From Desulfomicrobium macestii (lineage in GTDB: Bacteria > Desulfobacterota > Desulfovibrionia > Desulfovibrionales > Desulfomicrobiaceae), in the NCBI RefSeq assembly GCF_014873765.1, contig NZ_JADBGG010000004.1:124001-188000 (forward strand): DNA of 64,000 nt. The letters run 5' to 3'. The notes beneath the pieces were generated by a model that saw nothing but the letters and a program-made list of their open reading frames with translations, ran no database searches and was not told the DNA's origin. A program made the position numbers and the translations under genes. This document shows positions 5,297 through 20,963 of this stretch, one piece after another (the first letter of the stretch is position 1; the number at the start of each line of letters is the position of its first letter).

Positions 5297-6408
5297 AGCT
5301 CCATGTGATACAGTGCGTCGTCTCCCTGGCCCCCGGAGGGGCCGAGAGCCTGGCCTTGACCATTCTGGAGAAGGCGGACGTGTGGGGCTCGGTGTGCGGG
5401 CTGGTGCGCGGCACCGGCGCGCTGATCCCGGCCATCGAGGCCCAGGGGTTGCCCTGGCATGTGCTCTCGTCAAGTTCCCCCCGCCGTTTCCCGGTCTGGA
5501 AGGCTCTTGCGGGCGTGCTGCGCCGCGAGCGGGTCGATGTGGCGCACGTCCAGGCCGGCTATCTTCTCTCCTTCGTACTCCCGGCGGCGCTGCTGGCTGG
5601 TGTGCGCGTGGTGTACACCGAGCACGCCAAGCATTCCCTCGAACAGCAACCCATGCTGCGGCGCATGGTGCGCCTTTGCGCGCCGTTTGTGCACGCGGTC
5701 ACCTGCGTTTCGGAGAATTTGAAATCCTTCATGGTCGAACGCGTCGGCATCGATACGCGCAGGATTCAGGTCATCCCCAACGGGGTGGACCTGGGACGTT
5801 TCACGCAAGCGGCGCCAAGCCCTGAAACGCGCGGGCTTTTGCCCGAGAGCTGGGGAGGGCCGGACATCACGGTGTTCGGAAATGTGGCCCGGTTCAGCGA
5901 AGCCAAGGATCACCCCGGCCTGCTGCGGGCCTTTGACGAGGTCCGGCGCAGACATCCCGGCGTCCGTCTCCTGCTGGTGGGCGACGGCGAGACCCGGCCG
6001 GGCGTCGAATCCCTGATCAGCGAGCTTGGCCTTGGCGAATTCGTCCAATTGGCGGGCATGCGTCGGGACGTGCCGGCCCTGCTTGGCCTCATGGACGTCT
6101 TTGTTTTGTCCTCCATGCGCGAGGGCATGCCGATCTCGGTCCTGGAGGCCATGGCTGCGGGCTTGCCTGTGCTCACCACCGATGTCGGGGGGATCGGCGA
6201 GGTCGTGCAGGATGGCGTGACGGCCAGGGTTGTCGCACCTCGGGAGGTCACGGCCCTGGCCGGCGGGCTGGCATGGATGGTCGAGAACGCCGCTGCGCGC
6301 GCCGACATGGCGGCGCGGGGCAAGGCCCTGATTCATGGGCAATACGGGCATGAGCGGATGGTGGAGCGTTATGCAGAGCTGTATGCGGATGCGGGGAGGC
6401 GGCCATGA
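5293..6408 (+). CDS. glycosyltransferase family 4
   Basis: A 371-residue GT4 enzyme. The N-terminus (VVSLAPGGAESLALTIL) is the usual acceptor-side Rossmann start. The donor domain begins at VFGNVARFSEAKDHPGLL and has REGMPISVLEAMAAGLPVL followed by TTDVGGIGEVV. The GTG start overlaps the preceding TGA and the 3' end overlaps the next ATG as ATGA, so it sits inside a translationally coupled block. Predicted role: cytoplasmic transfer of one sugar of the exopolysaccharide repeat. The gene is clearly more GC-rich than the preceding acyltransferase. Confidence 0.88.
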   Translation: MKLHVIQCVVSLAPGGAESLALTILEKADVWGSVCGLVRGTGALIPAIEAQGLPWHVLSSSSPRRFPVWKALAGVLRRERVDVAHVQAGYLLSFVLPAALLAGVRVVYTEHAKHSLEQQPMLRRMVRLCAPFVHAVTCVSENLKSFMVERVGIDTRRIQVIPNGVDLGRFTQAAPSPETRGLLPESWGGPDITVFGNVARFSEAKDHPGLLRAFDEVRRRHPGVRLLLVGDGETRPGVESLISELGLGEFVQLAGMRRDVPALLGLMDVFVLSSMREGMPISVLEAMAAGLPVLTTDVGGIGEVVQDGVTARVVAPREVTALAGGLAWMVENAAARADMAARGKALIHGQYGHERMVERYAELYADAGRRP

Positions 6409-7724
6409 TAGGTCTAATGCGCCAGGCGATGCACTCCTTGCGCGGAAGCAGGCGCTATGCGCTCATGCGTGAAGGCGTCGCCCTGCAACGGCTGTCCGTG
6501 GAGGAATTGCGGCGGCGGCAACTGGCCCGGCTTGTCCAGGTGGTCGATCATGCCGTCCGCACGGTGCCGTTCTATCGCGATCTTTTTGACGAACTCGGCC
6601 TCAAGGCGAGCGACATCAGGACATTCGAGGATTTTGCCGGTCTGCCGACTCTTACCAAGCAGGATCTGCGCGAAAGCCTGCCGCGCATGCTTTCGTCCGC
6701 ATCCGATGCTTCCCGCCGCGTGGACAACGCCACCGGGGGGTCCACCGGGGAGCCTGTCAGATTTTATCAGGACATGGACGTGTTCGATGCCATGCAGGGC
6801 AGCTTCATGCTCGGGCTCACGTTCGCGGGATGGAAGCCCTCCGACATGATCGTCAACATTTGGGGCAATCCGAGGGATAAGGGGACTGCGCGGCCGTCGG
6901 TGGATTTGAAGCAATGGCTTTCAGGGTCCATGACCGTGAGCGCCTACCGCTACGGGCGCAAGGAGATGGATGATTGGCTGGAGGTTCTGGCGCGTTTTCG
7001 CAGGGTCTTCGTGTACGGCTATGTCTCCGTTTTGAGCGATTTGGCCGAACACATCCTGGCCTGCGGACGCAAGCCTTCGAGCGTGTGCGCGGTCATGACC
7101 TCGGCTGAGAAGCTCCATGACCATCAGCGCGCCCTCATCGCGCAGGCGTTCGGGTGCCGGGTCCATGACCAGTACGGGAGCAGGGAGGTGCCGTGCATCG
7201 CGGTGGAGTGCGAGCACGGCGGCATGCACCTTTTGACGCATTCGGCCTATGCCGAGTTCCTGCCCGAGCCGGGTTCGGAACTGAAGCGCCTGGTCGTGAC
7301 CGGCCTCACCAATCGGACCATGCCGCTACTGCGCTACGAGATCGGCGATTACGCGACCCCGCTCTCCCATGGCTGTTCCTGCGGCCGGGGTTTTCCCCTC
7401 ATTCGCATGGATATCGGCCGCATCTATGACTACATGCTCGCCGCAGGCGGCGGTAAGATTCACGGCGCATATTTTGTCAAGATCATCAAAGAGATAGAGG
7501 GCGTTCTTTCATTCCAGTTCAGGCAATCCGTGCCTGGGGAAGTGGAACTGCTGGTCAAATGCAAGGAGGGCGTGAGTGAAGCGTCCACGAGGCAGCTCAA
7601 TGCCCTGCCGCAATGCGTCGCACATGATCACGAGGGCGAGATCCGGCTGCGGGTCCGCTTTGTGGATGAAATCCCACGCACAATTGGTGGAAAACACAGG
7701 TATATCGTATGCGAGGTGCAGTGA
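6405..7724 (+). CDS. PaaK/CapK-like AMP-forming adenylating enzyme
   Basis: A 439-residue member of the phenylacetate-CoA ligase/coenzyme F390 synthetase superfamily. The phosphate-binding motif is visible as NATGGSTGEPVRFYQ (about residues 107-121), the aromatic adenine motif as DQYGSREV, and the hinge region as YEIGDYATPL. CapK-type relatives are common in capsule and exopolysaccharide clusters, where they are thought to activate a carboxylate (fatty, amino or aromatic acid) for attachment to the glycan; which acid is used here is unknown. ATGA overlap with the preceding gene and TGATG overlap with the next show that it belongs to the same operon. Confidence 0.82.
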   Translation: MIGLMRQAMHSLRGSRRYALMREGVALQRLSVEELRRRQLARLVQVVDHAVRTVPFYRDLFDELGLKASDIRTFEDFAGLPTLTKQDLRESLPRMLSSASDASRRVDNATGGSTGEPVRFYQDMDVFDAMQGSFMLGLTFAGWKPSDMIVNIWGNPRDKGTARPSVDLKQWLSGSMTVSAYRYGRKEMDDWLEVLARFRRVFVYGYVSVLSDLAEHILACGRKPSSVCAVMTSAEKLHDHQRALIAQAFGCRVHDQYGSREVPCIAVECEHGGMHLLTHSAYAEFLPEPGSELKRLVVTGLTNRTMPLLRYEIGDYATPLSHGCSCGRGFPLIRMDIGRIYDYMLAAGGGKIHGAYFVKIIKEIEGVLSFQFRQSVPGEVELLVKCKEGVSEASTRQLNALPQCVAHDHEGEIRLRVRFVDEIPRTIGGKHRYIVCEVQ

Positions 7725-8932
7725 TGTCGCGACCCGGAACAAGTTCCGTCATGTTTCACACCGTGGGAGTGCCCGACAGACGCTGGGCCTGGAATTTTCT
7801 CACGGTCCCCTGGCAGCTCTTCGACGCCCAACTCGGTGCGCTCAGGCGTTTCGGGTATCGCGCCGTTTTTCTGCGCGAGTACATGGACATCGCACTGGCC
7901 GGTCGCCTTGAGCAGGAGCGGGTCGTGTCCCTGACCTTTGACGACGGCTATCTGGACAACTGGGTCTTTGCCGCGCCTCTGCTGAAAAAGCACGGTTTTT
8001 GCGGCACGATTTTCGTCTCAACCGATTTTGTCGACCCCGCCGTCAAGCCCCGCCCCCAATTCGATCCGACGCGTCCGGAAAGCGCCCGGTTGCCAAGCGC
8101 CGGTTTTTTGTCCTGGAGCGAGATGCGCGCCCTGGAGCAGAGCGGAGTCATGGAGATCCAGTCCCACGGGATTACGCACACCTGGTATCCCTCAGGGCCG
8201 AAGATCGTGGATTTCCGGCATCCGGGCGATACATATTACTGGATGGACTGGAACGCCTGTCCCGAGGACAAGTGGGGCTATCTGAAGCTCAAATCCGATC
8301 CGGGCGTCTGGGGCGAGCCGGTTTATGAACACGCCAAGTCCATGGATGGTCCCGTTTTTCGTCCCGACGAGCGCGTTGGCCGGGCGCTGCGCGAAGTCGT
8401 GGCCTCGATGGGGAGATCATTTTTCGACGGGCCGGACTGGAGGCGTGATCTGCACGGCATGGCCGACGAAATGATGAAAGCCTGGAAGCAAACCAGCGTC
8501 GAGACGCATGATGAGTTCATGCTCCGGGTGCATGGGGAACTTGCGGATTCAAAGGCCGTTCTTGAAGACAACCTGCACAAGAAGATCGATTTCTTCTGCT
8601 GGCCCGGCGGCGGGTACACCGAGGAAGTGTTTGACGCGGCATCCGGGTATTATGTCGGCACCACGGTGGGGTCTCGGGAACGGCTCCGGCCGGCGGCCCT
8701 GGATGAGAACGGGTGTTTTCGTTTTTCCCGTGTGGGGCCTCCGGGAGTCGAGGGACGCATTGGGTTTCGTTATCTCGGGCCGTGGCTGCTGCCGCTGTTT
8801 CTGGAGGAGGTGCGGGGCGGAAGCCGCCTGGCGCGTCTCTTTCGGGGAGGCGGGAAGCTCACGGTCGAAAACTGGGAAAAAATGAAGATAGCCATGCTTG
8901 GGCGGGTGAGGGACGAATCGTGTCACGAATAA
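7724..8932 (+). CDS. polysaccharide deacetylase (NodB/CE4 fold)
   Basis: About 402 residues. Motif 1 TFDDGYLDN (the metal-binding and base aspartates) and motif 2 SHGITHTW (the two metal-binding histidines) of the CE4 NodB domain are intact, followed by a long C-terminal part of roughly 200 residues with a second aromatic-rich segment (FFCWPGGGYTEE). It would remove N- or O-acetyl groups from the glycan. No signal peptide is apparent, so it may act on lipid-linked or cytoplasmic intermediates. The ATG at 7724 overlaps the preceding TGA (TGATG) and has GAGGTG five bases upstream; an ATG at 7709 is less likely. Confidence 0.86.
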   Translation: MSRPGTSSVMFHTVGVPDRRWAWNFLTVPWQLFDAQLGALRRFGYRAVFLREYMDIALAGRLEQERVVSLTFDDGYLDNWVFAAPLLKKHGFCGTIFVSTDFVDPAVKPRPQFDPTRPESARLPSAGFLSWSEMRALEQSGVMEIQSHGITHTWYPSGPKIVDFRHPGDTYYWMDWNACPEDKWGYLKLKSDPGVWGEPVYEHAKSMDGPVFRPDERVGRALREVVASMGRSFFDGPDWRRDLHGMADEMMKAWKQTSVETHDEFMLRVHGELADSKAVLEDNLHKKIDFFCWPGGGYTEEVFDAASGYYVGTTVGSRERLRPAALDENGCFRFSRVGPPGVEGRIGFRYLGPWLLPLFLEEVRGGSRLARLFRGGGKLTVENWEKMKIAMLGRVRDESCHE

Positions 8933-11205
8933 TGGAAGGGAGAAAGCATGGCGGCTGCGTGGTGTATGGCCTGATGTTCTGGGCCGTGTTCGTCATCATG
9001 GGCATGTCCGCGCCGTCATCGTTTGCAACGGTGAATACGGGAGTGTTTTCCCCGCGAGGCATTGGCGGCGGGGGCGGAATGTACGTCATCTCCATCTCTC
9101 CATACGACGAGGGACTCATGTTTCTGGTCACCGACATGGGCGGCGCCTACCGCTCGGAAGACGGTGGCGAGCGGTGGGAGCTGATCCATTACACCCAGGG
9201 CTTTCGTTTCATGCAGTTCTCCACGCCCCCGGTGTTCTTCAAGGATCGCATCTATTGGCGGTCGGGGAAGAGCGCGCTGCGGGTCAGCACGGACCAGGGT
9301 CGCTCGTGGCCCAAAGTGGACGGCATGCCCTGGGGGAAGGACGCGATTCTGCATCTGACCGCGATTCCCGGCTCGCCGGATGTTCTTCTCGTCGGCACGA
9401 AGGGCGGGCTGTGGCGCACTGATGACGACTGCGCGACCTGGAAAAAGGTGCTGGACAGGCAGACATCCGAGACCGTCATCCTTGGCGAGGTCCTCTGCGC
9501 CATGGCGGACCCGGATGCTGTCGCGTGCAGCCGTGACCGGGGCCAGACGTGGACGACGTCTCCCGTGGTCGTCGACGGGCGGGCAATCAAGGGGCACCCT
9601 GCCATGGGGCTTGCTGGCGCGGTGTCGGACAAAGGTTCGCTCATGGTGGCCAGTCTGCACAAGTTCGGCATCATCCGCTCCACGGATCAAGGATCGAGCT
9701 GGGCCCTCGCGCATTCACCCTATGGGGGCGAAAATCATCTTGTCATGGCCCCCGGGCAGACTGATGTCGTCTATGCCGCCCAGACCGGATCAAACGTCAA
9801 CATCAACCTGCTTCGTTCCATTGACGGCGGCCAAAGCTGGAACCCGAGTTTCAGGATGGCCGATTTCGCCCGCAAATACGGCTGGAAGGCGAATGTGGAA
9901 CCGACCTGGATTCAGGACTCCCTGAAATGGAGTTATCTGATCTCGCCCAAGGGTTTTGCGGTCAATCCGCGAAAGCCCGAGGAAGCCTTTCTCGTTACGC
10001 AGGGCGAACTGTATCGCACCCGGGACGGAGGAGAGACATGGCATCCGCGCATGGCCACAGAGGTCGTCGTTGGGCCGGAGAAGTCGGCGCATTACCGGAG
10101 CATCGGGCTGGAGGTGACCAGCGCCTGGGGCTATCATTTCGACCCCCATAACCCGGCCAGACATTACATCACCTACACGGACATCGGATTCACCAGGTCG
10201 CCGGACAGCGGAAAAAGCTGGCAATGGACGGCGCAGGGTTCGCCCTGGAGGAACACGTTCTATGATCTGGTCAACGATCCGGATGTGCCGGACGTGCTGT
10301 ATGCGGCGGTGAGCGCCCGTCACGACATTCCGCACCATTCCAATCTTTCGGTTACCAAATCGGGATATCGGGGGCATCAGGGTGGGGTGGTCAGATCCAC
10401 GGACGGCGGCCTGAGCTGGCAGGTTCCCTATAAGCCGGGCAGTTCATCCGGACTGCCCAAACAGGTCTGCACCACCGTGACTCTCGATCCCGCGTCGCCT
10501 CCTGATCGGCGAACCCTCTATGCCGGTGTGTACGGGGAAGGCGATGATGACGAAGCGGGTGTGTACAAGTCCGTTGATGGAGGAACGTCGTGGGCAAAAA
10601 TTTCGCCGGGCCCGGGCGTTGCGCCAAATCTGCATATCTACCGGTTACGCGTGCATCCGAAGAGCGGAAATTTGTACTGCCTCATCACAGGGCTGCGCTC
10701 CAAGAATAATTTTTTCACGGTTCCGGGCGGCGTCTGGAAGTCGATGGATGGCGGCGAAACATGGAAGTCAATCAGTAGTGGCGTCAACCTTGTCTGGTGG
10801 ACCACGAATTTCGCCTGGGACCCTGAAAACGAAGACGTGATGTACGTCTCGGCCGGCTCTTCGGAAGGGCACTGGATGCAGGGCGGCATATACAAGACGA
10901 CGGACGGCGGAGACTCCTGGGCGCATGTCCTGACCGACGAGATGATTCAAAAAGCGGCCCGGGGGGAGAACTACGAGCAAACCATGGCTGTGGCCCTTCA
11001 TCCTCAAAATTCCCGGTTGGTTTATGCCGGTACTTCCAGGAACGGTTTGCTCTACAGCCAGGATGGCGGGGCGACTTGGCGGCATTATTCGGAATTTCCT
11101 GCTGCATCGGTGCAAAGCATTAATTTTGATCCTTCGGACATGACACGAATCATTGTAACGACCTTTGGACAGGGTGTGTTTGAAGGTCCCTATCTTCCGC
11201 AATGA
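8932..11205 (+). CDS. secreted BNR/Asp-box beta-propeller protein
   Basis: About 757 residues. An N-terminal hydrophobic segment ending near SAPSSFA looks like a signal peptide. The body contains about a dozen Asp-box turns of the form S/T-x-D-x-G-x-x-W, for example SEDGGERW, STDQGRSW, SRDRGQTW, SIDGGQSW, TRDGGETW, STDGGLSW, SVDGGTSW, SMDGGETW, TTDGGDSW and SQDGGATW. This spacing predicts one or two seven-bladed propellers, as in GH74 xyloglucanase, sortilin-type and photosystem HCF136-type proteins. I do not see proof of catalytic activity. The start at 8932 overlaps the preceding stop (TAATG); the open frame further upstream is overlap only. It could bind or trim the exopolysaccharide outside the inner membrane. 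Confidence 0.8.
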   Translation: MEGRKHGGCVVYGLMFWAVFVIMGMSAPSSFATVNTGVFSPRGIGGGGGMYVISISPYDEGLMFLVTDMGGAYRSEDGGERWELIHYTQGFRFMQFSTPPVFFKDRIYWRSGKSALRVSTDQGRSWPKVDGMPWGKDAILHLTAIPGSPDVLLVGTKGGLWRTDDDCATWKKVLDRQTSETVILGEVLCAMADPDAVACSRDRGQTWTTSPVVVDGRAIKGHPAMGLAGAVSDKGSLMVASLHKFGIIRSTDQGSSWALAHSPYGGENHLVMAPGQTDVVYAAQTGSNVNINLLRSIDGGQSWNPSFRMADFARKYGWKANVEPTWIQDSLKWSYLISPKGFAVNPRKPEEAFLVTQGELYRTRDGGETWHPRMATEVVVGPEKSAHYRSIGLEVTSAWGYHFDPHNPARHYITYTDIGFTRSPDSGKSWQWTAQGSPWRNTFYDLVNDPDVPDVLYAAVSARHDIPHHSNLSVTKSGYRGHQGGVVRSTDGGLSWQVPYKPGSSSGLPKQVCTTVTLDPASPPDRRTLYAGVYGEGDDDEAGVYKSVDGGTSWAKISPGPGVAPNLHIYRLRVHPKSGNLYCLITGLRSKNNFFTVPGGVWKSMDGGETWKSISSGVNLVWWTTNFAWDPENEDVMYVSAGSSEGHWMQGGIYKTTDGGDSWAHVLTDEMIQKAARGENYEQTMAVALHPQNSRLVYAGTSRNGLLYSQDGGATWRHYSEFPAASVQSINFDPSDMTRIIVTTFGQGVFEGPYLPQ

Positions 11206-11276
11206 GAGTAGGCAGGACATGACTTTACATGAAAGAGCTGGATTGAAAATTCATGTATGTATAGATCGAGGTGTAT

Positions 11277-13094
11277 ATGTCCTCATTTTTTAGTTGCTTC
11301 GGATGCAATGAAGAATGCTTGAATCAGGATTCTCTTTTTCATGATGTCGATGAAACATTGAATCCTTGCCGTACACGTACACTCTCAAGCTTCATAGGAA
11401 AGAATTTTCGCATCAGAATTGGAAAAACTCCTTCACCGGAAATGAAATATTCAATTTTTTATGAGAATTTGAAATGGAAGATATTCATAGTAGGGGATGT
11501 GGTTGATATTCCTTCGAATCATATTGAGATCATATCCGATGCTCTCAGCCGGGAATCATTTTATGAATTATCCAAATTCGAGGGCATGTATGGGATAATC
11601 GCAGTAAATAATATTGAAAATGAAGTGTTTGTATTGACCGACAGAAGAAGCCAGTATCCCATTTACTGGGGGATTGATTCCGGAAATTTATATATAGGGT
11701 CTGAGGTCTCGTCTTTTTGCAAGCTGGATGTGTTTAATGTCAGCAAGAAATGGATATGGGAATTTTTATATTACAATTTTTCAGTCTCAAACGTAAGTTT
11801 TCTAGAAGGTGTAAACAGAGCTTCTGCAGGCACGGTGATGAAGTTTTCGCTGCAAGATTCAATTGTGTACAAAATATTCACCTATGCATCGGAATTCAAG
11901 GTGCATACGCCGCTTCTCAAGAAAAAAAAGGCACTTGAAGCAGCCTTGGAAGTTTTTTCGGAAAGATTCCCTCTTTATTTTGAAAATACACAGATGGCAT
12001 GCCCCATCACAGCCGGTTGGGATGCACGGACAGTGCTGGGTTTCAAGCCGACCGGTGCGGACATGACAACTTACACCTACGGGATTCCCGGTACGTCGGA
12101 TCTGATCCGTGCGGCAAGAGTGGCCCGCAGCGCCGGAACGTTGCACAAGGAGGTTTTGTTTGATCAGGAATTCGTGGCCGGTTTGCCTGAACTTATGCTG
12201 GACACTGTTTATGTATCTTCCGGAACACAAGGGGTGAAACGGGCCACATTGCTGCACGTGTATCGCTCGATAACGCAAAATGGGACGAATTATCCGCTTA
12301 CCCTGAGTGGTGTTGCCTTGGGTGCGCTGCGTGGACATGCTGGATGGCATCCATTGACTTCTCCAGACGTGTACGACCTCTTTGAAGGCAAGACATCAGA
12401 ATTTCAAAATGGTTCATGGGGAGATATATTTGAAGATGACATTGGTGATTTTTCTGATCATATTATAGAAACTAATTGTTTACTTGCTGATAGATTTGGG
12501 AGTTTTACGTCCAGTGCCCATCATTTTTCATATAGCCTGTACATGATTGGTGCGAGATATTTTGGCGGGGAAATGAAAATCGCAGACAACTTCACCACGT
12601 GGCGAGTTCCTGCATACGATACGAAAATCATAGAGTACGGTTTCGCTTCGGAACTCAGCATGCTGAGCTATTCCCAGTTTTTGCCCGAGCATAGTCGCGG
12701 CTCGCGCTGCGAAATGGTCATGCAGTCCTATCTGCTGGCGAAAAAAGCTCCGCACCTTGCAAAAATACCCATTGTCAGCGCGCGTCCCGATTTTGTCCTG
12801 GGGGGAGATTTATTTCACTTCCTGTACAGGGTTAACCATAAGATTCGCAATACATTGAATAAAGAAATAAATCAGGTCCCGCTCGAAGATTGGGAGACAT
12901 GGCTGAATAAGGATTGTGGATCATGGATTGATGCGTTTTTTCACGGTCATGATCTTGAAATATCAAAATATGTTTCCAGGAAAAATTTGATGGAATTGCT
13001 CAGTGGAGACAAAAGTGGTCATATGTTTACGAAAATGTTTACTGTGGAGATAGTGCTGCGGCTTGTGAAGAATAGATGGGTTAAATTTTGGTAA
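11277..13094 (+). CDS. asparagine-synthetase-like ligase without glutaminase cysteine
   Basis: About 605 residues resembling glutamine-dependent asparagine synthetases: an N-terminal Ntn-like domain (FEGMYGIIAVNNIENEVFVL followed by TDRRSQYPIYW) and a C-terminal PP-loop synthetase domain with ITAGWDARTVLG in place of SGGxDS (D near residue 249). The catalytic Cys2 of true glutaminases is missing: the protein begins Met-Ser-Ser, so glutamine is unlikely to be the nitrogen donor. This is the state of beta-lactam synthetases and related ligases. GAGG five bases before the ATG at 11277 supports that start; a GTG at 11271 is possible. The gene is much more AT-rich than its neighbours. The product formed is unknown. 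Confidence 0.72.
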   Translation: MSSFFSCFGCNEECLNQDSLFHDVDETLNPCRTRTLSSFIGKNFRIRIGKTPSPEMKYSIFYENLKWKIFIVGDVVDIPSNHIEIISDALSRESFYELSKFEGMYGIIAVNNIENEVFVLTDRRSQYPIYWGIDSGNLYIGSEVSSFCKLDVFNVSKKWIWEFLYYNFSVSNVSFLEGVNRASAGTVMKFSLQDSIVYKIFTYASEFKVHTPLLKKKKALEAALEVFSERFPLYFENTQMACPITAGWDARTVLGFKPTGADMTTYTYGIPGTSDLIRAARVARSAGTLHKEVLFDQEFVAGLPELMLDTVYVSSGTQGVKRATLLHVYRSITQNGTNYPLTLSGVALGALRGHAGWHPLTSPDVYDLFEGKTSEFQNGSWGDIFEDDIGDFSDHIIETNCLLADRFGSFTSSAHHFSYSLYMIGARYFGGEMKIADNFTTWRVPAYDTKIIEYGFASELSMLSYSQFLPEHSRGSRCEMVMQSYLLAKKAPHLAKIPIVSARPDFVLGGDLFHFLYRVNHKIRNTLNKEINQVPLEDWETWLNKDCGSWIDAFFHGHDLEISKYVSRKNLMELLSGDKSGHMFTKMFTVEIVLRLVKNRWVKFW

Positions 13095-13135
13095 CATGCT
13101 GAAATTATCAGTTCTATACTGGTGAAGAGGGATCA

Positions 13136-13930
13136 ATGAGTGAAGTCAAGAAAGTATTATGGACTGGCGGGTGGGACTCGACATTCAGAGTGCTTTACCT
13201 TGTCGTGGTGGAAAAATGTCCTGTACAGACATACTATATAATTGATCCGTTCCGCTGGTCTCTTGTCCACGAGTTCAAGGCGATGAGCAACATCAAGCGT
13301 ACCTTGAAGCAAAAATATCCTGAATTGAGTGATCTTCTGTTGCCGACACTCTATTTTGACAAAACAGATGTGGGTGAAAATATGCATTTATCCGCATGTT
13401 ATGCAGGACTTAAAGAGAGACTGGGTGGACAATACGAGTGGTTGTCCATCTGGGCCGATCAATTCGGCCTGTCGGAAATTGAGCTGGTTATTGAACGTTC
13501 TGATTCTGTTGTCGGCTGCCGTTCCGTCATTGCAAATTATTTATCGAAAGATGAAAATGGATATCGCGTTATCGATTCAAAATTTAAAGGAACGCCTGTC
13601 TATGATCTTTTCCATTATTTTGTTTTCGCGATAACGGACATTTATAAAGTGGACATGCGAAGAATAGCGACAGAACACGATTTTGCGGACATACTGGATT
13701 TTTCATGGTTTTGTCACCGCCCAACATTTTTTTCCAAGCCGTGCGGAACATGTAATCCATGTAAGAATACGTATGTGAAGGGTCTTCAAGACAGGCTCGG
13801 CCCGTATGGAAGATGTATGTATTTTTTGAATTATTATTCAAATCCTAAAAATTATTTTGACAAGAATTCGCGCACGTTCTCTTTTCTCAAGTCCATGAAG
13901 AATTCTTTGGCAAGGAAGATAGCTTCATGA
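13136..13930 (+). CDS. QueC-like PP-loop ATPase
   Basis: A 264-residue protein starting with a PP-loop, VLWTGGWDSTFRVL, which fits the N-type ATP pyrophosphatase motif SGGxDS with a threonine for the first serine. Near the C-terminus C193, C203, C206 and C209 (in CHRPTFFSKPCGTCNPC) have the spacing of the zinc site of QueC, the 7-cyano-7-deazaguanine synthase. The rest is divergent, and no queD, queE or folE gene is nearby, so a queuosine role is unlikely. It probably adenylates a carboxylate for amide or nitrile formation on an unknown substrate. AGAGGG precedes the ATG. AT-rich like the gene before it, it was probably acquired together with it. Confidence 0.65.
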   Translation: MSEVKKVLWTGGWDSTFRVLYLVVVEKCPVQTYYIIDPFRWSLVHEFKAMSNIKRTLKQKYPELSDLLLPTLYFDKTDVGENMHLSACYAGLKERLGGQYEWLSIWADQFGLSEIELVIERSDSVVGCRSVIANYLSKDENGYRVIDSKFKGTPVYDLFHYFVFAITDIYKVDMRRIATEHDFADILDFSWFCHRPTFFSKPCGTCNPCKNTYVKGLQDRLGPYGRCMYFLNYYSNPKNYFDKNSRTFSFLKSMKNSLARKIAS

Positions 13931-13974
13931 ATAGTGCTCTTAAAATTAATCTCAATGTGTAGAATGGAGATACT

Positions 13975-15147
13975 GTGGGACGCGCACTCATCACTTCGGC
14001 CAGCACTCGTGTTGCCTACTGCATCTGCAAGAATTTAAGTCGCCATGGCATCCAGGCGGTCATGGCGGATTCCGATCCGCTCGCCATGTCATTCTGGTCG
14101 CGCCATGCCGCCGGCAGACATGTGTACGCTTCGCCCTTTGTGGATGAGGCCCGCTTTGTCGAAGACATTCTTCGGATCATCGACAAGGAGAAAATCGACG
14201 TTCTTATCCCTGTGCTGGAAGAAACCTATTTCGTGGCGCGTCATCGCGCCGTCCTTGCTCCTCATGTGCGCATCTTCATGGCGCAGTACAAGGATCTCAT
14301 CAGCCTGCACGACAAGCGCTCTCTCAAAAACATTGCGGAGCGTCTCGGGGTGAGCATGCCCCTGACCGTGGAACTCAAAGACGCAGTCACTTCAGGCTTG
14401 CCGCCCGATTTTCATTTTCCTGCCGTCCTCAAGCCCAAGCAGGGGGGGGGAGGGTGGTCGGTGATGGAAGTATCCAGCCAGTCCGCCTTGCGCATGATGG
14501 CCGGGCGGACTGACGTGCTCCCGGAACGCTATCTCGTTCAGGAAAAAATCGAAGGTCCTATTGCGGGAGTGGCCATGCTCTACCGCGACGGGGCCCTGGT
14601 CGCTGCGGACTCATATTGGACCGTGCAGACCTATCCCCACCCGTACGGCCAACCGACGGTCCGGGTCAGCCGGGATTTTCCCGATGCCACGGCGGCGATG
14701 AAGACCCTCCTTGATGATTTGCAATGGACCGGGCCGTGTCAGGCGGACTTTCTTCATGACGAGGTCCGGAACAAGAGTTTTCTCATCGACGTCAATCCGC
14801 GTTTTTGGGGTTCGGTCGGGCAGAGCATCGCCCGGGGCATAGATTTTCCCTACTACTATTACAAATGCGCCATGGGCGAGAATGACTTCAGTGCGCCCCT
14901 GAACCCGCCGGTGGTCGCCACGCGGTGGCTGGGCGGAGACATGATGCGAAAAGCCCATGCATTTTTATCCGGATCCAGCGCCGCGCGGCCGGACGCGGTG
15001 TTATCCGGATTCGCGGCCATGGATGATTTTGAGTTGCTCGATCCTTTTCCTCTGGCAGGCTGGGCCGCCTGCCAGGCCGCTCGCAAGGTGTGCAGCCTGG
15101 TCGGACGGGGTGCGCACCGGGAGGCTTTGGACGGGGTTTGGGAGTAA
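13975..15147 (+). CDS. ATP-grasp carboxylate-amine ligase-like protein
   Basis: A 390-residue ATP-grasp protein of the carbamoyl-phosphate-synthase/D-Ala-ligase superfamily. Visible parts: an N-terminal Rossmann pre-ATP-grasp region (RALITSASTRVAYCICKNL), the ATP lid FPAVLKPKQGGGGWSVMEV (residues about 149-167), ERYLVQEKIEGPIAGVAML, and the Mg-binding end FLIDVNPRFWGSVGQS. Such enzymes join a carboxylate to an amine or thiol through an acyl-phosphate. GTG start with GGAG five bases upstream. The glycine loop is encoded through nine consecutive G residues (14442-14450). With the two preceding ligase-like genes it forms a three-enzyme set; the substrate is unknown. Confidence 0.75.
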   Translation: MGRALITSASTRVAYCICKNLSRHGIQAVMADSDPLAMSFWSRHAAGRHVYASPFVDEARFVEDILRIIDKEKIDVLIPVLEETYFVARHRAVLAPHVRIFMAQYKDLISLHDKRSLKNIAERLGVSMPLTVELKDAVTSGLPPDFHFPAVLKPKQGGGGWSVMEVSSQSALRMMAGRTDVLPERYLVQEKIEGPIAGVAMLYRDGALVAADSYWTVQTYPHPYGQPTVRVSRDFPDATAAMKTLLDDLQWTGPCQADFLHDEVRNKSFLIDVNPRFWGSVGQSIARGIDFPYYYYKCAMGENDFSAPLNPPVVATRWLGGDMMRKAHAFLSGSSAARPDAVLSGFAAMDDFELLDPFPLAGWAACQAARKVCSLVGRGAHREALDGVWE

Positions 15148-15188: not shown

Positions 15189-16022
15189 ATGGAACTCTTG
15201 AAGAATCAAAAGAATCTGATCATCTGGGTTGTTTTCCTAGCCGTTGCCGCCGGGGTCGTCTATTGGCCGATCGTCGTACCCATGGTCAGACAGTGGGCTG
15301 CCGACGACAACTACTCGCACGGCTTTCTTGTGCCTTTCATCGCCGGGTATCTGGTCTACATGCGCCGGGACGATCTCCTGAAGGCGGAGGTCAAGCCGGC
15401 CGAGTCCGGCATGGGTCTCATCCTCTTTGGGCTGGCCATGCTTCTTTTCGGCTGGCTGGGCACGGAATACTTCACCATGCGCGCCTCCCTGGTGGTCATC
15501 ATCGCGGGATCGGTGCTCTATATCCTGGGATGGAAGATTTTTGGGATTCTCCTTGCCCCTTTGGCCTATCTGCTGCTCATGATCCCGATTCCCTACATCA
15601 TCTATGACGCCGCCGCCTTTCCCCTGAAACTCTTTGTGACCAAGGTTTCGGTCCTGGCCCTCAAGGCCATGGGCATCGTCATCTGGCAGGAAGGCAACAT
15701 CCTCATGTTCCCAAGCATTACCCTTGAGGTGGCGGATGCCTGCAGCGGACTGCGCTCCATCATGTCCCTTTTGGCCCTGGGCACGGCGTACGCATTCGTG
15801 CTGCACTCCTCGGTCCGGGACCGGGTGGTGCTCATCGCCTCGACCCTGCCCATCGCGGTTTTCACCAACTGCCTGCGGGTCATCGCCACGGGGGTTCTGG
15901 CCCAATATTTCGGGGCGGCGGCAGCCGAGGGCTTTTTCCATGAATTCGCGGGATTCTTCGTCTTTTTCGCAGCGGTGGTCATGTTCGTGGCCCTGGGCGC
16001 AGCACTCAAGAGGTGGTCATGA
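15189..16022 (+). CDS. exosortase
   Basis: A 277-residue polytopic membrane protein with all three catalytic positions of exosortases: Cys185 in ADACSGLRS, Arg230 in TNCLRV and His251 in FFHEFAG. The N-terminal signature DDNYSHGFLVPFIAGYLVY is also typical. Exosortases are cysteine transpeptidases that cleave C-terminal PEP-CTERM-like sorting signals and pass the protein to the cell surface, usually in bacteria making exopolysaccharide. The exact subclass (XrtA, XrtD or other) cannot be fixed by eye. The gene begins at the ATG after GGGGAGCTGA, and its stop overlaps the epsI start as ATGA. Confidence 0.93.
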   Translation: MELLKNQKNLIIWVVFLAVAAGVVYWPIVVPMVRQWAADDNYSHGFLVPFIAGYLVYMRRDDLLKAEVKPAESGMGLILFGLAMLLFGWLGTEYFTMRASLVVIIAGSVLYILGWKIFGILLAPLAYLLLMIPIPYIIYDAAAFPLKLFVTKVSVLALKAMGIVIWQEGNILMFPSITLEVADACSGLRSIMSLLALGTAYAFVLHSSVRDRVVLIASTLPIAVFTNCLRVIATGVLAQYFGAAAAEGFFHEFAGFFVFFAAVVMFVALGAALKRWS

Positions 16023-16651
16023 ATATTCGCTTCCGTTTTATTTTCATCATGCTGCTTTTGGCCGGGGCCGGAACGTACATGGCGTTTCATCGCGATCTCG
16101 AAGTGCCCCCGGGGCGGCCCTTCGAGGAATTTCCGGCCAGCCATGCGGGCTGGCGCATGATCGGGCAGGCAAACCTGAGCAAAAACATCGTGAAGGTGCT
16201 GATGCCGACGGATTATCTCTCCCGGCGTTATGCCAGGGAGGATGGCTCGACCGTCGACATGTACCTGAGTTTTTTCGACGGCGGACCCGATTCGGGCAGG
16301 ATACACTCGCCCAAGCATTGCCTGCCGGGCGGCGGCTGGACGGAACTGTCCTCCAGGCACGTGACGTTGGATTTGGGCAGGGAAGCGGTAAATCTGGTCC
16401 AGGCCGTGTACGCCATGGGCAATAACCGGGAGGTCATCTACTACTGGTTCTCCATGCGCGGAAAGACCATGTCGGACGAGCTTTCCCTGAAACTTGCGGA
16501 GATTACAGGCTCCATGTTTCACCGTCGCCGGGATCAGAGCTTTATGAGGATTTCCGTGCAGGGAGATGGCGCCCAGGAGGAGGCGGAGCGACGGATCGAA
16601 GGTTTTCTGCGGGATTTCTATCCGGTCATTCGCGATTTTTTGCCTAACTAG
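16019..16651 (+). CDS. epsI: EpsI family protein (exosortase partner)
   Basis: A 210-residue protein with an N-terminal membrane anchor (residues about 5-20) and the EpsI/exosortase-C-terminal signature HSPKHCLPGGGW. EpsI-like domains are either fused to or encoded just behind exosortases and are thought to take part in processing or in exopolysaccharide export; the exact activity is not established. The ATG at 16019 overlaps the exosortase stop and has AGGTGG directly ahead; the GTG at 16013 is less likely. The pair is thus translationally coupled. Confidence 0.9.
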   Translation: MNIRFRFIFIMLLLAGAGTYMAFHRDLEVPPGRPFEEFPASHAGWRMIGQANLSKNIVKVLMPTDYLSRRYAREDGSTVDMYLSFFDGGPDSGRIHSPKHCLPGGGWTELSSRHVTLDLGREAVNLVQAVYAMGNNREVIYYWFSMRGKTMSDELSLKLAEITGSMFHRRRDQSFMRISVQGDGAQEEAERRIEGFLRDFYPVIRDFLPN

Positions 16652-16668: not shown

Positions 16669-18768
16669 ATGAACATGGACATGTCGAGGCCTGCCGTGCC
16701 CGGAATCACATATCGCCTGTTCGCCGCGCTCCTTTTCATCCTGTGCGCGCTCACATTCTGCAATGGTTTGGCATGTGCAGAGCCCCTGGTCGGCGTATCG
16801 CCCTCGCAGGTCCTCGTCCTTTACAATGCGGATTGGCGAGAGCGGCATCCCCTTATCTCCGCTGCGCAGGATTCGCTGGCGGTCGCCGAGCACTATGCGC
16901 GGATGCATACCGATCCGGTCACCGGGGAGAGGCCCTACCTGCTGGGGCTGACGGGTGGCCGGTCGTCAGGAAACGTACTCTCCGGCGATCATCTTGAGGA
17001 GCGCAGCGCGGACAACGCTTGCGGTGTCCTGTATCGGTCCCGCGATTCCAAACGTGTCGAAAGCGGCTGCGAGATGCGCGACAGTCGCATGGTGGAGGTG
17101 GTCTTGCCCAAGACCGAAGTCCCGTGGAACCTCAGCACCCTCGGACTTGAAATCGAGTCCGACGAGAGATCAAGTCGCGCGCGTTTCAAGCTGGTCGAGA
17201 ACGGCGCAAGCCTTCATCCCGACAAGGTGCGGGTCCAGCAAGACGGGGACTGGCGAATCAGGGCCCTGGGCGGGCTCCTCATGGAGGGGGCGTTTACGGC
17301 CACGGCCCGGTGCGCGGACGCTCAGGGAGACGTTCACGAGTGGAGCGCCGAGTACAAAGACATTCTACAGGCGTCATGGAACGCCACGGGTCTTGACGGT
17401 ATTCGTGACGACCAAAATTACCTGGATCTGGTGGAGGCTCCGATCAAGGCGTTTCTGGAAGATCCCGCCAATGCCAGGCCCGACGGAACCCTGCTGAAGG
17501 ATCATGTCCTGTACATAGTTGTTTGTCATGGGCTGCCCCTCACCGTTGCGGCTCCGTACGGCATTGCCACCGGCGTCGGCCCGCAGTTGCGCGATTATGG
17601 ATCTGCGATTGATTTGTGTCAGCGACTCCAGCTCATGTACTACGATTTCGAGAGCCTGCACCAACGTAAGGTTCAGCCGATGCGCTTTGCTCCGGCTCCA
17701 AAGAAAAGCGCTTTCACGAATATTATATTCCGCACGCGAATGTCCATGCCGCTTCAGGGGGCGGATCTAAATCCTTTCGTGCACCCGGCGGCCTACCGCA
17801 AAGGCGGGAACAAGGCCGGGCTGGGTTCGCCTCGGTTCACATCCGCGCAGCGAGCCCTGCGCCCGGATCGTCACCTCTTTTTCGCCATGCGCATAGATGG
17901 ACAGACACCCCTTGAAGCCATGGAGCTGGTGGACCGGGCCGTCTATGCATCCAGGCATGCGGGTCCGGAGATGGGCATGCTCGCGGATGTGCCTCTCGTA
18001 AAAGCCCCGGAACGCGTCGGAGAGATCGGTGACCGGACTCCGGCCAAGCCGTTTTGGGACCTGGGATACAGGCATCTGTTCCAGCACCCCAAAGGCAGGG
18101 TCCGGCTTGACCTTTTCAAACTGGCCCCGGGGAGCGGATTCTTCAACTCAAGCCCTGTCTTCCTTCCCGGAGGGATTGCGGCCTTTGTCCAGTCGAATCA
18201 GGGCTGGAACATGAAGGATTCGCGATTCCACGAATTCTTGAGGCAAGGGGTGACGATGACGGCCGGTTCGGCTCGCGTCGACCCGCGCAAGACGCCCCAT
18301 ATTCACAGCCACAGTTTTTGGGACGAAGCGGTTTTTTATCCGGCCCTGCGTGAAGGCCGCCCTGTGGGCGAGATTCTGCTCAGCAATCAGGTCCATATGG
18401 GCTGGATCACCAGTTTTGTGGGCGATCCTCTGTACCGATTGCCGCCTGAACCGCAAAAGCCGGGCGGCCTGGTCGGTCTGACCTGGGACAAAAACGTGCG
18501 CGTGGCGCAGGCGCGCGATGCGGAGCGCGGCAAGGGATATCTGGTCATGGCGGATTTGGGGGCGAGCGCCCATGAACCCCGCCTGGCCCAGATGCGCCTT
18601 GGCCGCGTTGCAGCCGAGGAAAACGGGGCAAAGCATGTCTTCGAACGCTTTGCCTCCAGGCCCTGCGTGTTCGTCCCCAATCGGGAAGTGCGCAAGGGGG
18701 AACCGTGGCGGCTGGAATTGATGGATCCTTTCGGCAATACGGCAACGCTTGCGGGCAATCTGGAGTAG
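16669..18768 (+). CDS. TIGR03790-like secreted protein
   Basis: A 699-residue protein with a clear signal peptide (hydrophobic residues 17-36 ending at LACAEP). Segments VLVLYNADWRERHPLISA, DSLAVAEHYARM, VLYIVVCHGLPLTVA and LFFAMRIDGQTPLEAMELV match what I recall of family TIGR03790, proteins of unknown function restricted to bacteria with exosortase systems. A Cys286-His287 pair sits in the segment corresponding to the caspase/gingipain-like core, so a cysteine-peptidase-type fold is conceivable but not shown. The final part is a separate beta-rich domain. It lies between epsI and prsK on the same strand, consistent with an exosortase-associated role in the envelope. Confidence 0.7.
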   Translation: MNMDMSRPAVPGITYRLFAALLFILCALTFCNGLACAEPLVGVSPSQVLVLYNADWRERHPLISAAQDSLAVAEHYARMHTDPVTGERPYLLGLTGGRSSGNVLSGDHLEERSADNACGVLYRSRDSKRVESGCEMRDSRMVEVVLPKTEVPWNLSTLGLEIESDERSSRARFKLVENGASLHPDKVRVQQDGDWRIRALGGLLMEGAFTATARCADAQGDVHEWSAEYKDILQASWNATGLDGIRDDQNYLDLVEAPIKAFLEDPANARPDGTLLKDHVLYIVVCHGLPLTVAAPYGIATGVGPQLRDYGSAIDLCQRLQLMYYDFESLHQRKVQPMRFAPAPKKSAFTNIIFRTRMSMPLQGADLNPFVHPAAYRKGGNKAGLGSPRFTSAQRALRPDRHLFFAMRIDGQTPLEAMELVDRAVYASRHAGPEMGMLADVPLVKAPERVGEIGDRTPAKPFWDLGYRHLFQHPKGRVRLDLFKLAPGSGFFNSSPVFLPGGIAAFVQSNQGWNMKDSRFHEFLRQGVTMTAGSARVDPRKTPHIHSHSFWDEAVFYPALREGRPVGEILLSNQVHMGWITSFVGDPLYRLPPEPQKPGGLVGLTWDKNVRVAQARDAERGKGYLVMADLGASAHEPRLAQMRLGRVAAEENGAKHVFERFASRPCVFVPNREVRKGEPWRLELMDPFGNTATLAGNLE

Positions 18769-18782
18769 CTGGAGTAGCTTTA

Positions 18783-20837
18783 ATGACCCCTTCCTTCGTT
18801 TCCTTTCTGACAACCCTGTGTGCCGTCATCCTGGCCGTGGGATTTGCCGCGCGCATGCTGCTTGGCGTCATGCGCGCCGATCGGTCGCGGGCCTCGGGAG
18901 CCCTGGCCGTGGCGCTGGTGCTGTCTGCCGGACTGGAAGCGCTGGATCTCTTGACGCTCCTGTACCCCGAATCGGTACAGGCCTGGCGTATGGCCGGACT
19001 GCTGGTGGAAGGAGCCCTGGGGCCGGCCTGGATCTGGTTCACGGCCCTTTTTGCCCGCAACTACGAAGAAGGCAGGTTGCCCGGAACGCAGCGCGCGCTG
19101 ATCCTCCTGTCCTGCCTCATGATGCCCTGGGCCGGGTATCTGGCTGCGCAGGGTGCCTATTTTGCCCCGGATTTCGCGACCGAGGGTCTACTTTTTCTCC
19201 TTCCGGGAAGCTTTTATTTCTATATCGGTTTTGCCGTGTGCTGCGTCGCGGCCCTGCTCAACATCGAGGCCACGCTGGCGGCGGCCGTGCATCACCGTCG
19301 CTGGAAGATCAAATTCATTCTTCTGGGGGCCGTGAGCATTCTGGCCGCCTTGATCCTCTATTACAGTCAGAGCCTTTTGCATCGTTCCATCGACATGAGT
19401 CTGGCGGGCCTGCGCTCCCTGGCCTTGCTTCTAGGTACGGCCATGATGTGGTTTTCGGACCTGCGGCGTGGCCCCGAAGTACGGATCAGCTTTTCGAGGC
19501 GGTTGGCTTTCAAGTCCGTGGTCCTGGTCGCGGCCGGTCTGTATCTGGTCGGGCTGGGCTTGCTCGGCGAGGGTGCACGCCTTTTCGGAGACGATCTGGG
19601 CCGGGCCGTACTGTTGGTGGTCAGTTTTCTGGCCGGGCTCGGTCTTCTGGTCGTTTTTCTCTCGGACACGGTGCGCCGCAAGATCCGCCTTTTTCTGCAG
19701 ATGCACTTTTACGGCGAAAAGTATGATTACCGCATCCAGTGGGTGCAGTTCACCCAGCACCTGGCCTCGGCCCGCACCCAAAACGAGCTGCAGCAGGCGG
19801 CATTGTCGGCCTGCTGCGAAACCTTCGGTATCGTGGGTGCGGGGCTCTTTCTCTTCGATCATGACCGCAAGCTTTACCTGCCCGCCAGCCTGGTGGAGAT
19901 GGATTCTCACGAAGGTGGTTTCGGGGAAGACTCGGCTCTTGTGACGGAGCTTGAAACCCGGCGTTCCGTGCTGCGCGCGGTGGATGTGGACGACTCTTCG
20001 CCCTGGCTCGCGCGGGCCGGCTTTGCCATTCCCATTTTCCGCGAAGACGCGCTGGACGGGTTTGTGCTTCTGGGTCGGCCCATCAATCCACGGGAGGAGT
20101 ACGACGAGGAAGACTTCGAGCTGATGGACACCATGGCCCGGCACATCTCTTCGGCCCTTTTGAACATGCGTCTGCTGGACCAGTTGGCCAGGTCGAGGGA
20201 GATGGAGATCATGGGCAAGGTCTCGGCCTTTGTGCTTCATGATCTGAAGAATCATGTCTATACGCTCTCGCTCATGGCCGACAACGCGCAAAAACATATC
20301 GGCAATCCCGAATTTCAGAAGGACATGGTCGATTCCCTGGGGAGCACGGTAGGCAAGATGAAGATCCTCATCTCGCAACTTAAAGGTCTCCCCGACCGTC
20401 ACACCCTGAAGCGCGAGCCCGTGGGTCTTTTGTCCCTGGCAAGGGAATCCACCCGACCTCTGCCGCAGGAACGCCTTGATTTCCAGGGTCCGGACGTGCG
20501 GGTGATGATCGACAGCGCGGAGATGGGCAAGGTGATCCTGAATCTTTGCCTCAACGCACTGGAGGCGTCCACGGCGGGTCAATCCGTATCCGTCACGGTA
20601 GGGGATGAGCCCGAACCGTTTGTAAGGGTGACGGACCATGGTGTGGGCATTGCCAAGGAGTTCATGGCGGGCGGGCTCTTCGAACCTTTCAAGTCCACCA
20701 AGGCCAAGGGCATGGGCATCGGGCTGTATCAATGCAAGCAGATCGTCGAGGCCCACGGCGGGCGCATCGAAGTGCGCAGTGCGCCGAATGAGGGCTCTGA
20801 ATTTATTGTATGTATTGGTGACAGGCAGGTTTTGTGA
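18783..20837 (+). CDS. prsK: PEP-CTERM system histidine kinase PrsK
   Basis: About 684 residues in the PrsK architecture (TIGR02916): roughly eight membrane helices in residues 1-310, a GAF-like domain (about 340-460), the dimerisation domain with phospho-acceptor His486 in FVLHDLKNHVYTLSLM, and a HATPase core (LNLCLNALEAS, DHGVGI, KGMGIGLYQCKQIVEAHGG). PrsK is thought to phosphorylate PrsR, which controls exosortase-substrate genes. I take the ATG at 18783 (MTPSFVSFL); the frame is open back to 18705 but that stretch overlaps the preceding gene. It is followed by prsR after 126 bases. Confidence 0.92.
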   Translation: MTPSFVSFLTTLCAVILAVGFAARMLLGVMRADRSRASGALAVALVLSAGLEALDLLTLLYPESVQAWRMAGLLVEGALGPAWIWFTALFARNYEEGRLPGTQRALILLSCLMMPWAGYLAAQGAYFAPDFATEGLLFLLPGSFYFYIGFAVCCVAALLNIEATLAAAVHHRRWKIKFILLGAVSILAALILYYSQSLLHRSIDMSLAGLRSLALLLGTAMMWFSDLRRGPEVRISFSRRLAFKSVVLVAAGLYLVGLGLLGEGARLFGDDLGRAVLLVVSFLAGLGLLVVFLSDTVRRKIRLFLQMHFYGEKYDYRIQWVQFTQHLASARTQNELQQAALSACCETFGIVGAGLFLFDHDRKLYLPASLVEMDSHEGGFGEDSALVTELETRRSVLRAVDVDDSSPWLARAGFAIPIFREDALDGFVLLGRPINPREEYDEEDFELMDTMARHISSALLNMRLLDQLARSREMEIMGKVSAFVLHDLKNHVYTLSLMADNAQKHIGNPEFQKDMVDSLGSTVGKMKILISQLKGLPDRHTLKREPVGLLSLARESTRPLPQERLDFQGPDVRVMIDSAEMGKVILNLCLNALEASTAGQSVSVTVGDEPEPFVRVTDHGVGIAKEFMAGGLFEPFKSTKAKGMGIGLYQCKQIVEAHGGRIEVRSAPNEGSEFIVCIGDRQVL

Positions 20838-20963
20838 GCAATTTTTGCTTAGTAAGTATGGACTTGCGTTGTCGGTGTGTGTTATGTTTTCCGTAAACTT
20901 CTTTTTTTCTGCCGTAGCCTGAGATATTTTGCGGCCGAAAATTTCAGCGAGTGGGGTCAATAA
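20838..20963 (+). other. prsK-prsR spacer
   Basis: This 126-base AT-rich gap interrupts an otherwise tightly packed operon. No hairpin terminator or clear promoter is visible. It may simply be a long leader for prsR, whose TTG start suggests low translation. Confidence 0.3.

Follow-up and report, generated by a model that had tools for sequence, protein, structure and literature searches.

A probably imported asparagine-synthetase-like and QueC-like gene pair in an XrtA exosortase locus of Desulfomicrobium macestii, with a possible role in amide-type glycan substitution

Introduction

In the Wbp/Vim pathway of Porphyromonas gingivalis, the deacetylase VimE unmasks an amine, VimA contributes an amino acid and the AsnB-type enzyme WbpS amidates the uronic acid of the linking sugar, and the authors of this model proposed its extension to exosortase loci, D. 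vulgaris included (PMC7468200). By analogy, it is the nearest experimentally supported model for the locus described here, which lies in a 64,000-nucleotide stretch of the 4.5-Mb genome of Desulfomicrobium macestii (contig NZ_JADBGG010000004.1, G000:C4:124001-188000 in our numbering, referred to as the window). Three consecutive genes at this locus encode an asparagine-synthetase-like (AsnS-like) protein, a QueC-like PP-loop protein and an ATP-grasp protein. A sequence-only reading of the window had proposed that these three enzymes, together with a nearby CapK-like enzyme, may jointly assemble an amide- or amino-acid-like decoration on a glycan, or on a small molecule attached to it.

WbpG-type enzymes receive their ammonia from HisH/HisF-type proteins, and beta-lactam synthetase has the two-domain architecture of asparagine synthetase, has lost the N-terminal cysteine nucleophile (Cys1) and uses an amine within its substrate. 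Within PF06508, WbpG and other N-acetyl sugar amidotransferases form cluster 5, with the cysteine pattern CxxC(x)6CxC (PMC13329287). The canonical member of PF06508 is QueC, the 7-cyano-7-deazaguanine synthase, in which the VPxRN and YxQxHxxE motifs are conserved or needed (PMC13329287). The Tyr and Asp of a further motif, Y-x-D (YxDC), hold deazaguanine both in QueC and in Cap9 of type IV CBASS, and QueC relatives have repeatedly been reused for conjugation (PMC13279940, PMC13329287).

A gene pair within a row of three

The row of genes and its flanks are as follows:

8932–11205, + strand: secreted BNR/sortilin-like beta-propeller, from Pfam/NCBIfam scans
11271–13094, + strand, 607 aa: predicted homologue of asparagine synthetase, both domains present, nucleophilic Cys missing from the N-terminus, PP-loop TAGWDAR, GC 0.43
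13136–13930, + strand, 264 aa: predicted PP-loop protein, QueC-like but divergent, loop TGGWDST, zinc motif C-x9-C-x2-C-x2-C, YPDC absent, GC 0.41
13975–15147, + strand, 390 aa: predicted ligase of the ATP-grasp superfamily, similar to PRK06849/PRK12767 and resident in the locus, GC 0.595
15189–16022, + strand: exosortase A (XrtA), TIGR03109 at 214.9 bits (cut-off 208)

The three enzyme genes are consecutive open frames separated by gaps of 41 and 44 bp, and the exosortase gene starts 41 bp past the end of the ATP-grasp gene, so that the row of ATP-using enzymes between beta-propeller and exosortase stands as first described. The layout is kept in two more genomes of the genus (94% and about 80% identity) and is therefore no assembly accident.

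Base composition divides the row. The GC content is 0.428 for the AsnS-like gene and 0.410 for the QueC-like gene, compared with 0.595 for the ATP-grasp gene and 0.57–0.67 across the remaining genes of the stretch that runs from GT3 (5293) to PrsR; at third codon positions the pair has 0.44 and 0.43 against 0.70–0.81 for those other genes.

The distribution of the genes in relatives, surveyed in 247 genomes of the order (genomes and loci carry our G and L numbers), divides it in the same way. With the AsnS-like protein alone as query, six genomes gave at least 132 bits and the next best gave 43 bits. In all six the QueC-like gene, which occurs in 8 of the 247 genomes, is adjacent to the AsnS-like gene, except that in G217 the beta-propeller gene lies between them, and this linkage survives changes of order and orientation (the window, L018, L019 and L021). 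The AsnS-like proteins are only about 25% identical between genome groups and the gene arrangement differs, so the linkage of the pair has outlived much divergence. All six genomes place the pair in the same locus type, with CapK, deacetylase and the same glycosyltransferases, whereas the three genes are contiguous in only three genomes of one genus. Co-occurrence, which the sequence-only reading had named as its check, thus fails for the trio and holds for the pair.

The third gene encodes what its sequence indicates to be an ordinary PRK06849/PRK12767-like ligase, with a Pfam ATP-grasp_3 match of 25.8 bits (cut-off 23.2), an IDVNPR motif and an ATP-grasp domain with acidic metal residues. 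It is found in the same locus type in G209, G313, G323, G364 and G422, and the pair is absent from the loci of the first three. In G313 and G323 only about 10 and 50 bp separate it from the preceding beta-propeller gene, with no pair between, which is the arrangement to be expected if the pair were absent. These two genomes also carry two ATP-grasp paralogues, about 50% and 33–35% identical to that of the window, close together in their exopolysaccharide loci (L170:8957-13539 and L173:8644-13327). In G217 the last 25 codons of the ATP-grasp gene, 84% identical, persist beside the exosortase gene (L018:5226-5300) as a recombination scar, and UDP-GlcNAc-epimerase-like, glycosyltransferase-like and flippase-like genes are now present beside this remnant.

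Composition and gene presence in relatives together lead us to reject the trio as a single unit. Because of the deviant composition and the pattern in relatives, the AsnS-like and QueC-like genes are probably an imported AT-rich two-gene cassette in a locus of about 0.60 GC, and on horizontal acquisition this cassette (11271–13930) would have been inserted downstream of the beta-propeller gene and ahead of the resident ATP-grasp gene. The low GC of the pair is a feature of the trio-bearing members of the window's genus; the AsnS-like genes of G217, G364 and G422 match the loci around them in composition. The gene for the CapK-like enzyme, which the sequence-only reading had placed with the three, is present in related loci with or without the pair.

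The AsnS-like protein

The AsnS-like protein of the window has weak matches in Pfam and NCBIfam. A profile of five members, compared by hhalign with four canonical AsnB proteins of the same genome, aligned over 532 columns and both domains (99% probability, E 1e-17), which places it by profile in the asparagine-synthetase superfamily, with two-domain architecture and full-length homology. The glutaminase Cys1 (MCG) is present in all four of these AsnB proteins and is missing from the window protein and its five pair relatives, and the glutaminase is accordingly predicted to be dead. Lacking Cys1, the protein is not an ordinary glutamine-dependent synthetase, and identity as such an amidotransferase was ruled out. 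A WbpS (eps_aminotran_1, TIGR03108) identity was likewise ruled out, at 21.1 bits against a cut-off of 816.9. The distant AsnS-like proteins of the six pair genomes keep the full-length frame and the TxGxDxR and YFGGE motifs.

Like beta-lactam synthetase, the window protein is an asparagine-synthetase homologue without glutaminase; it differs in its remote sequence and in its exopolysaccharide setting rather than an antibiotic cluster.

The QueC-like protein and its family

The QueC-like protein of the window has no match in Pfam or NCBIfam. Of 45 family members, 41 match PF06508 (E <= 0.01), and the family aligns with canonical QueC of the order by hhalign (E 9e-8). The predicted model has a pLDDT of 90, and its structural matches by VIA-align include Cap9 in the Cap9-CdnD complex, the top match (Z 11.8, 3.7 A over 167 residues), YcfA (Z 10.3), Bacillus subtilis QueC (Z 9.8) and QatC (Z 9.4); the model thus indicates a QueC/Cap9-like fold. 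The superfamily assignments of the sequence-only reading (asparagine synthetase, QueC PP-loop and ATP-grasp) were in this way borne out by hhalign, fold and Pfam.

Besides the fold, the family retains much of canonical QueC. The PP-loop pattern [ST]-[GS]-G-x-D-S occurs in 44 of 45 members and reads TGGWDST in the protein of the window; the C-terminal lysine is kept in 44 of 45 and the four-cysteine zinc motif in all 45, with a variable spacing between the first two cysteines (x9 in the window protein). In contrast, the Y-x-D motif is found in none of the 45 members and in all six canonical QueC proteins of the order ([YH]xD[CG]), and the VPxRN and YxQxHxxE columns are not conserved. The family has marks of its own, QY-x-W (42 of 45), WFCH (36 of 45) and R-x-S. 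Members were gathered partly through the patterns TGG[WF]DS and GxQYEWL, which inflates the conservation of these patterns and leaves the loss of YxDC unaffected. Because the Tyr and Asp that hold deazaguanine in Cap9 and QueC are lost, the substrate is probably not 7-carboxy-7-deazaguanine, as has been suggested for QatC, where the recognition residues are lost too. A role as the queuosine enzyme was ruled out by this loss and by the separate canonical queC of the host, which adjoins queE and queF on another contig (C9).

Cap9 and QatC are among the closest folds and likewise reuse the QueC scaffold; unlike theirs, the setting here is an exopolysaccharide locus, and Pfam and NCBIfam scans of the neighbouring proteins (beta-propeller, AsnS-like, ATP-grasp and exosortase) gave no match to a CD-NTase, QatA or QatD family. 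The WbpG group shares with the QueC-like protein its PP-loop and surface-polysaccharide setting and differs in its cysteine pattern, and no WbpG-type match to the QueC-like family was found in Pfam or NCBIfam.

Relatives of the QueC-like protein are found by profile: a single-sequence scan of genome contigs returned none, a sequence-only phylum sample returned only its own genome, and plasmid and Protein Data Bank sequence searches gave no match and nothing significant, respectively. A profile scan of 84,980 genomes found 264 relatives, the best 80 of which come from many phyla. The genes are spread over many bacterial phyla and one archaeal bin (L031:5061-5885, on a contig binned as Bathyarchaeota), are often in polysaccharide loci and sometimes stand in two to four tandem copies. 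Distant relatives (27–37% identity) also occur on seven IMG/VR viral contigs (L175-L181).

Among 199 neighbours within two genes of a QueC-like gene, the commonest are glycosyltransferases, flippases and TupA-type ATP-grasp ligases (8 proteins); these tallies were made with a codon-composition filter, because spurious antisense open reading frames stood among the neighbours first assigned in high-GC loci. In 67 less-redundant loci, 10 TupA genes lie within 3 kb of the QueC-like gene and 2 farther away, with 35% of bases near (naive p 0.0009, the loci not being fully independent), and the corresponding counts for AsnS-like genes are 5 and 2 (p 0.06). TupA-type ligases (PF14305) within 3 kb occur in L044, L078, L035, L096, L036 and L088, from Bacteroidota, Gammaproteobacteria, Synergistales and an actinobacterium. 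Where AsnS-like genes abut QueC-like ones, Cys1 is absent in L102 (Salimicrobium) and L054 (an unclassified bacterium) and kept in L064.

Tandem arrays of three or four QueC-like copies, 36–70% identical, are found at L050:3004-6530, L035:1880-4324, L046:8018-10783 and L058:9962-12245. Certain copies resemble a copy from a different locus more than they resemble their own neighbours (the third of L058 and the second of L085 share 54%), and the array copies look as if each served a separate substrate.

The exosortase setting and the place of WbpS

Besides XrtA itself, the locus has an XrtA-type outer-membrane protein (TIGR03016, over cut-off) just upstream of the window and, 5–7 kb upstream of it, the XrtA deacetylase (TIGR03006, 388.8 bits, cut-off 276.2) and FemAB (TIGR03019, 369.4 bits, cut-off 260.35). 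As all four models are passed, family matches identify a canonical XrtA/PEP-CTERM exopolysaccharide locus, and the setting originally proposed holds. The deacetylase and FemAB are the VimE-like and VimA-like genes of this locus; lying just outside the window, they escaped the sequence-only reading, which also passed over the missing glutaminase cysteine and the lost deazaguanine-binding motif.

The locus therefore resembles Wbp/Vim in its protein-sorting setting, its CE4 deacetylase, its FemAB/VimA-type transferase and the AsnS homologue in the window. It differs in that WbpS is an AsnB-type eps_aminotran_1 protein and the AsnS-like protein lacks Cys1, and in that the QueC-like protein and CapK are outside the described pathway. 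Since VimE/VimA-like genes are present while the four Asn_synthase matches of the genome are all on other contigs, leaving no WbpS-type AsnB on the contig of the window, the pair may, by analogy, fill or extend the place of WbpS.

Possible chemistry and alternative explanations

By sequence, the AsnS-like and QueC-like proteins are homologues of N-type PP-loop ATPases. The explanation we tentatively prefer is that this imported pair of ATP-dependent, carboxylate-activating enzymes could add an amide-type substituent to the glycan or to a linking-sugar precursor. The exclusive linkage of the pair suggests that the two would act in the same or consecutive steps: the QueC-like protein would most likely adenylate a carboxylate, and the AsnS-like protein, its glutaminase lost, would use an amine or free ammonia instead of glutamine. 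Jointly they would equip a uronic acid or an amino sugar, in the glycan itself or in the exosortase linking sugar, with a nitrogen substituent bound by an amide or a related link. A further amide bond in that glycan, independent of the pair, would probably be the work of the ATP-grasp ligase. As a broad notion, C–N bond formation driven by ATP is supported; joint action of all three enzymes, which composition and relatives divide, is not.

Several observations count against this proposal. The AsnS-like protein lacks the serines of SGGxDS (it reads TAGWDAR), the YNGEIYN loop, the GDGGDEL motif and a clear equivalent of the catalytic lysine; with several catalytic motifs lost it may be inactive as a synthetase, and its predicted structure is poor (pLDDT 44). 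Replacement of WbpS draws on few genomes, the nearest WbpS-like genes being those of G198, G204 and G226, all under the family cut-off. A uronic-acid sugar-nucleotide pathway was not noticed in the stretch examined, where no search was aimed at one. Elsewhere, most QueC-like genes have no AsnS-like neighbour, many stand alone in unrelated surroundings, and several lie outside polysaccharide loci.

Some of these points would suit a different division of labour, in which the QueC-like protein alone is a nitrile or amide synthetase that uses free ammonia to give a carboxamide or cyano group, and the AsnS-like protein serves as a partner or scaffold without activity of its own. The retained fold, PP-loop, lysine and zinc site, the degraded AsnS-like motifs and the frequent absence of an AsnS-like neighbour agree with this; however, with VPxRN and YxQxHxxE lost the two-step chemistry may be gone, and the motifs and full-length frame kept in distant AsnS-like proteins argue against an inert partner, so that we regard it as rather unlikely. 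Were the QueC-like protein instead a Cap9/QatC-type ligase attaching 7-carboxy-7-deazaguanine to a protein or glycan amine, its top structural match, the deazaguanine pathway of the host (queC, queE and queF) and the repeated reuse of QueC relatives for conjugation would be accounted for, but the reading Tyr and Asp are missing from every family member and no defence partner is encoded by adjacent genes, which makes this very improbable.

The remaining alternatives concern the genes as a group. That the three ligases form one pathway, activating carboxylates in turn to build a multi-amide decoration, accords with their contiguity on one strand with short gaps, kept in three genomes of the genus, and with the ATP-grasp gene sharing a locus with the pair in G364 and G422 too, but this gene occurs without the pair in three genomes and has resident composition, and G217 has the pair with only the 25-aa remnant; we consider one pathway improbable. 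The cassette might also be an accident island, or reflect serotype-like variation of the glycan, with products whose target has nothing to do with the exosortase, as its AT-rich imported composition, its patchiness and the mosaic gene order among relatives would allow; the return of the pair to one locus type in six of six genomes, although the family is rare in the order, makes this unlikely.

A wider proposal, which we hold to be doubtful, is that a widespread, unnamed family derived from QueC serves the synthesis of cell-surface glycans, apart from tRNA/DNA modification or phage defence, and that here, together with a glutaminase-free AsnS homologue, it makes a new nitrogen linkage on the sugar joined to exosortase-processed proteins. 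Such a family would broaden the known uses of the QueC scaffold. Nothing on the QueC-like family in exopolysaccharide or capsule loci was found in the open-licence literature, and a 2026 survey of PF06508 describes no cluster with its signature. The superfamilies are known singly; their pairing, a glutaminase-free AsnS in this role and a QueC-like family of glycan loci are not described in the papers found. Since XrtA loci that are alike in other respects either have or lack the cassette, a comparison of such relatives should be a clean one, with a single chemical group as the expected difference.

Further genes of the locus

The remaining features assigned around the pair are as follows:

6405–7724, + strand: CapK/PaaK-like AMP-forming ligase, nearest NCBIfam DVU_1553 family, 137 bits, under the cut-off of 300
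7709–8932, + strand: polysaccharide deacetylase (PF01522), a second CE4-type protein besides the XrtA one upstream of the window
16013–16651, + strand: EpsI-type exosortase partner (TIGR02914, DUF3485)
18780–22334, + strand: PrsK-type histidine kinase and PrsR-type regulator of the XrtA system, conserved in related loci

The names PrsK and PrsR are presumed from family knowledge. A scan for promoters and terminators gave sites no more numerous than in shuffled sequence. Between EpsI and the sensor kinase, a large protein (16669–18768) has a weak TIGR03790 match (48 bits, cut-off 67) and is kept in relatives L016-L018. Upstream of the window, the gene for a secretin of the type III secretion kind (SctC, 507 bits, above the cut-off; L224:6904-9225, - strand) adjoins the exopolysaccharide locus.

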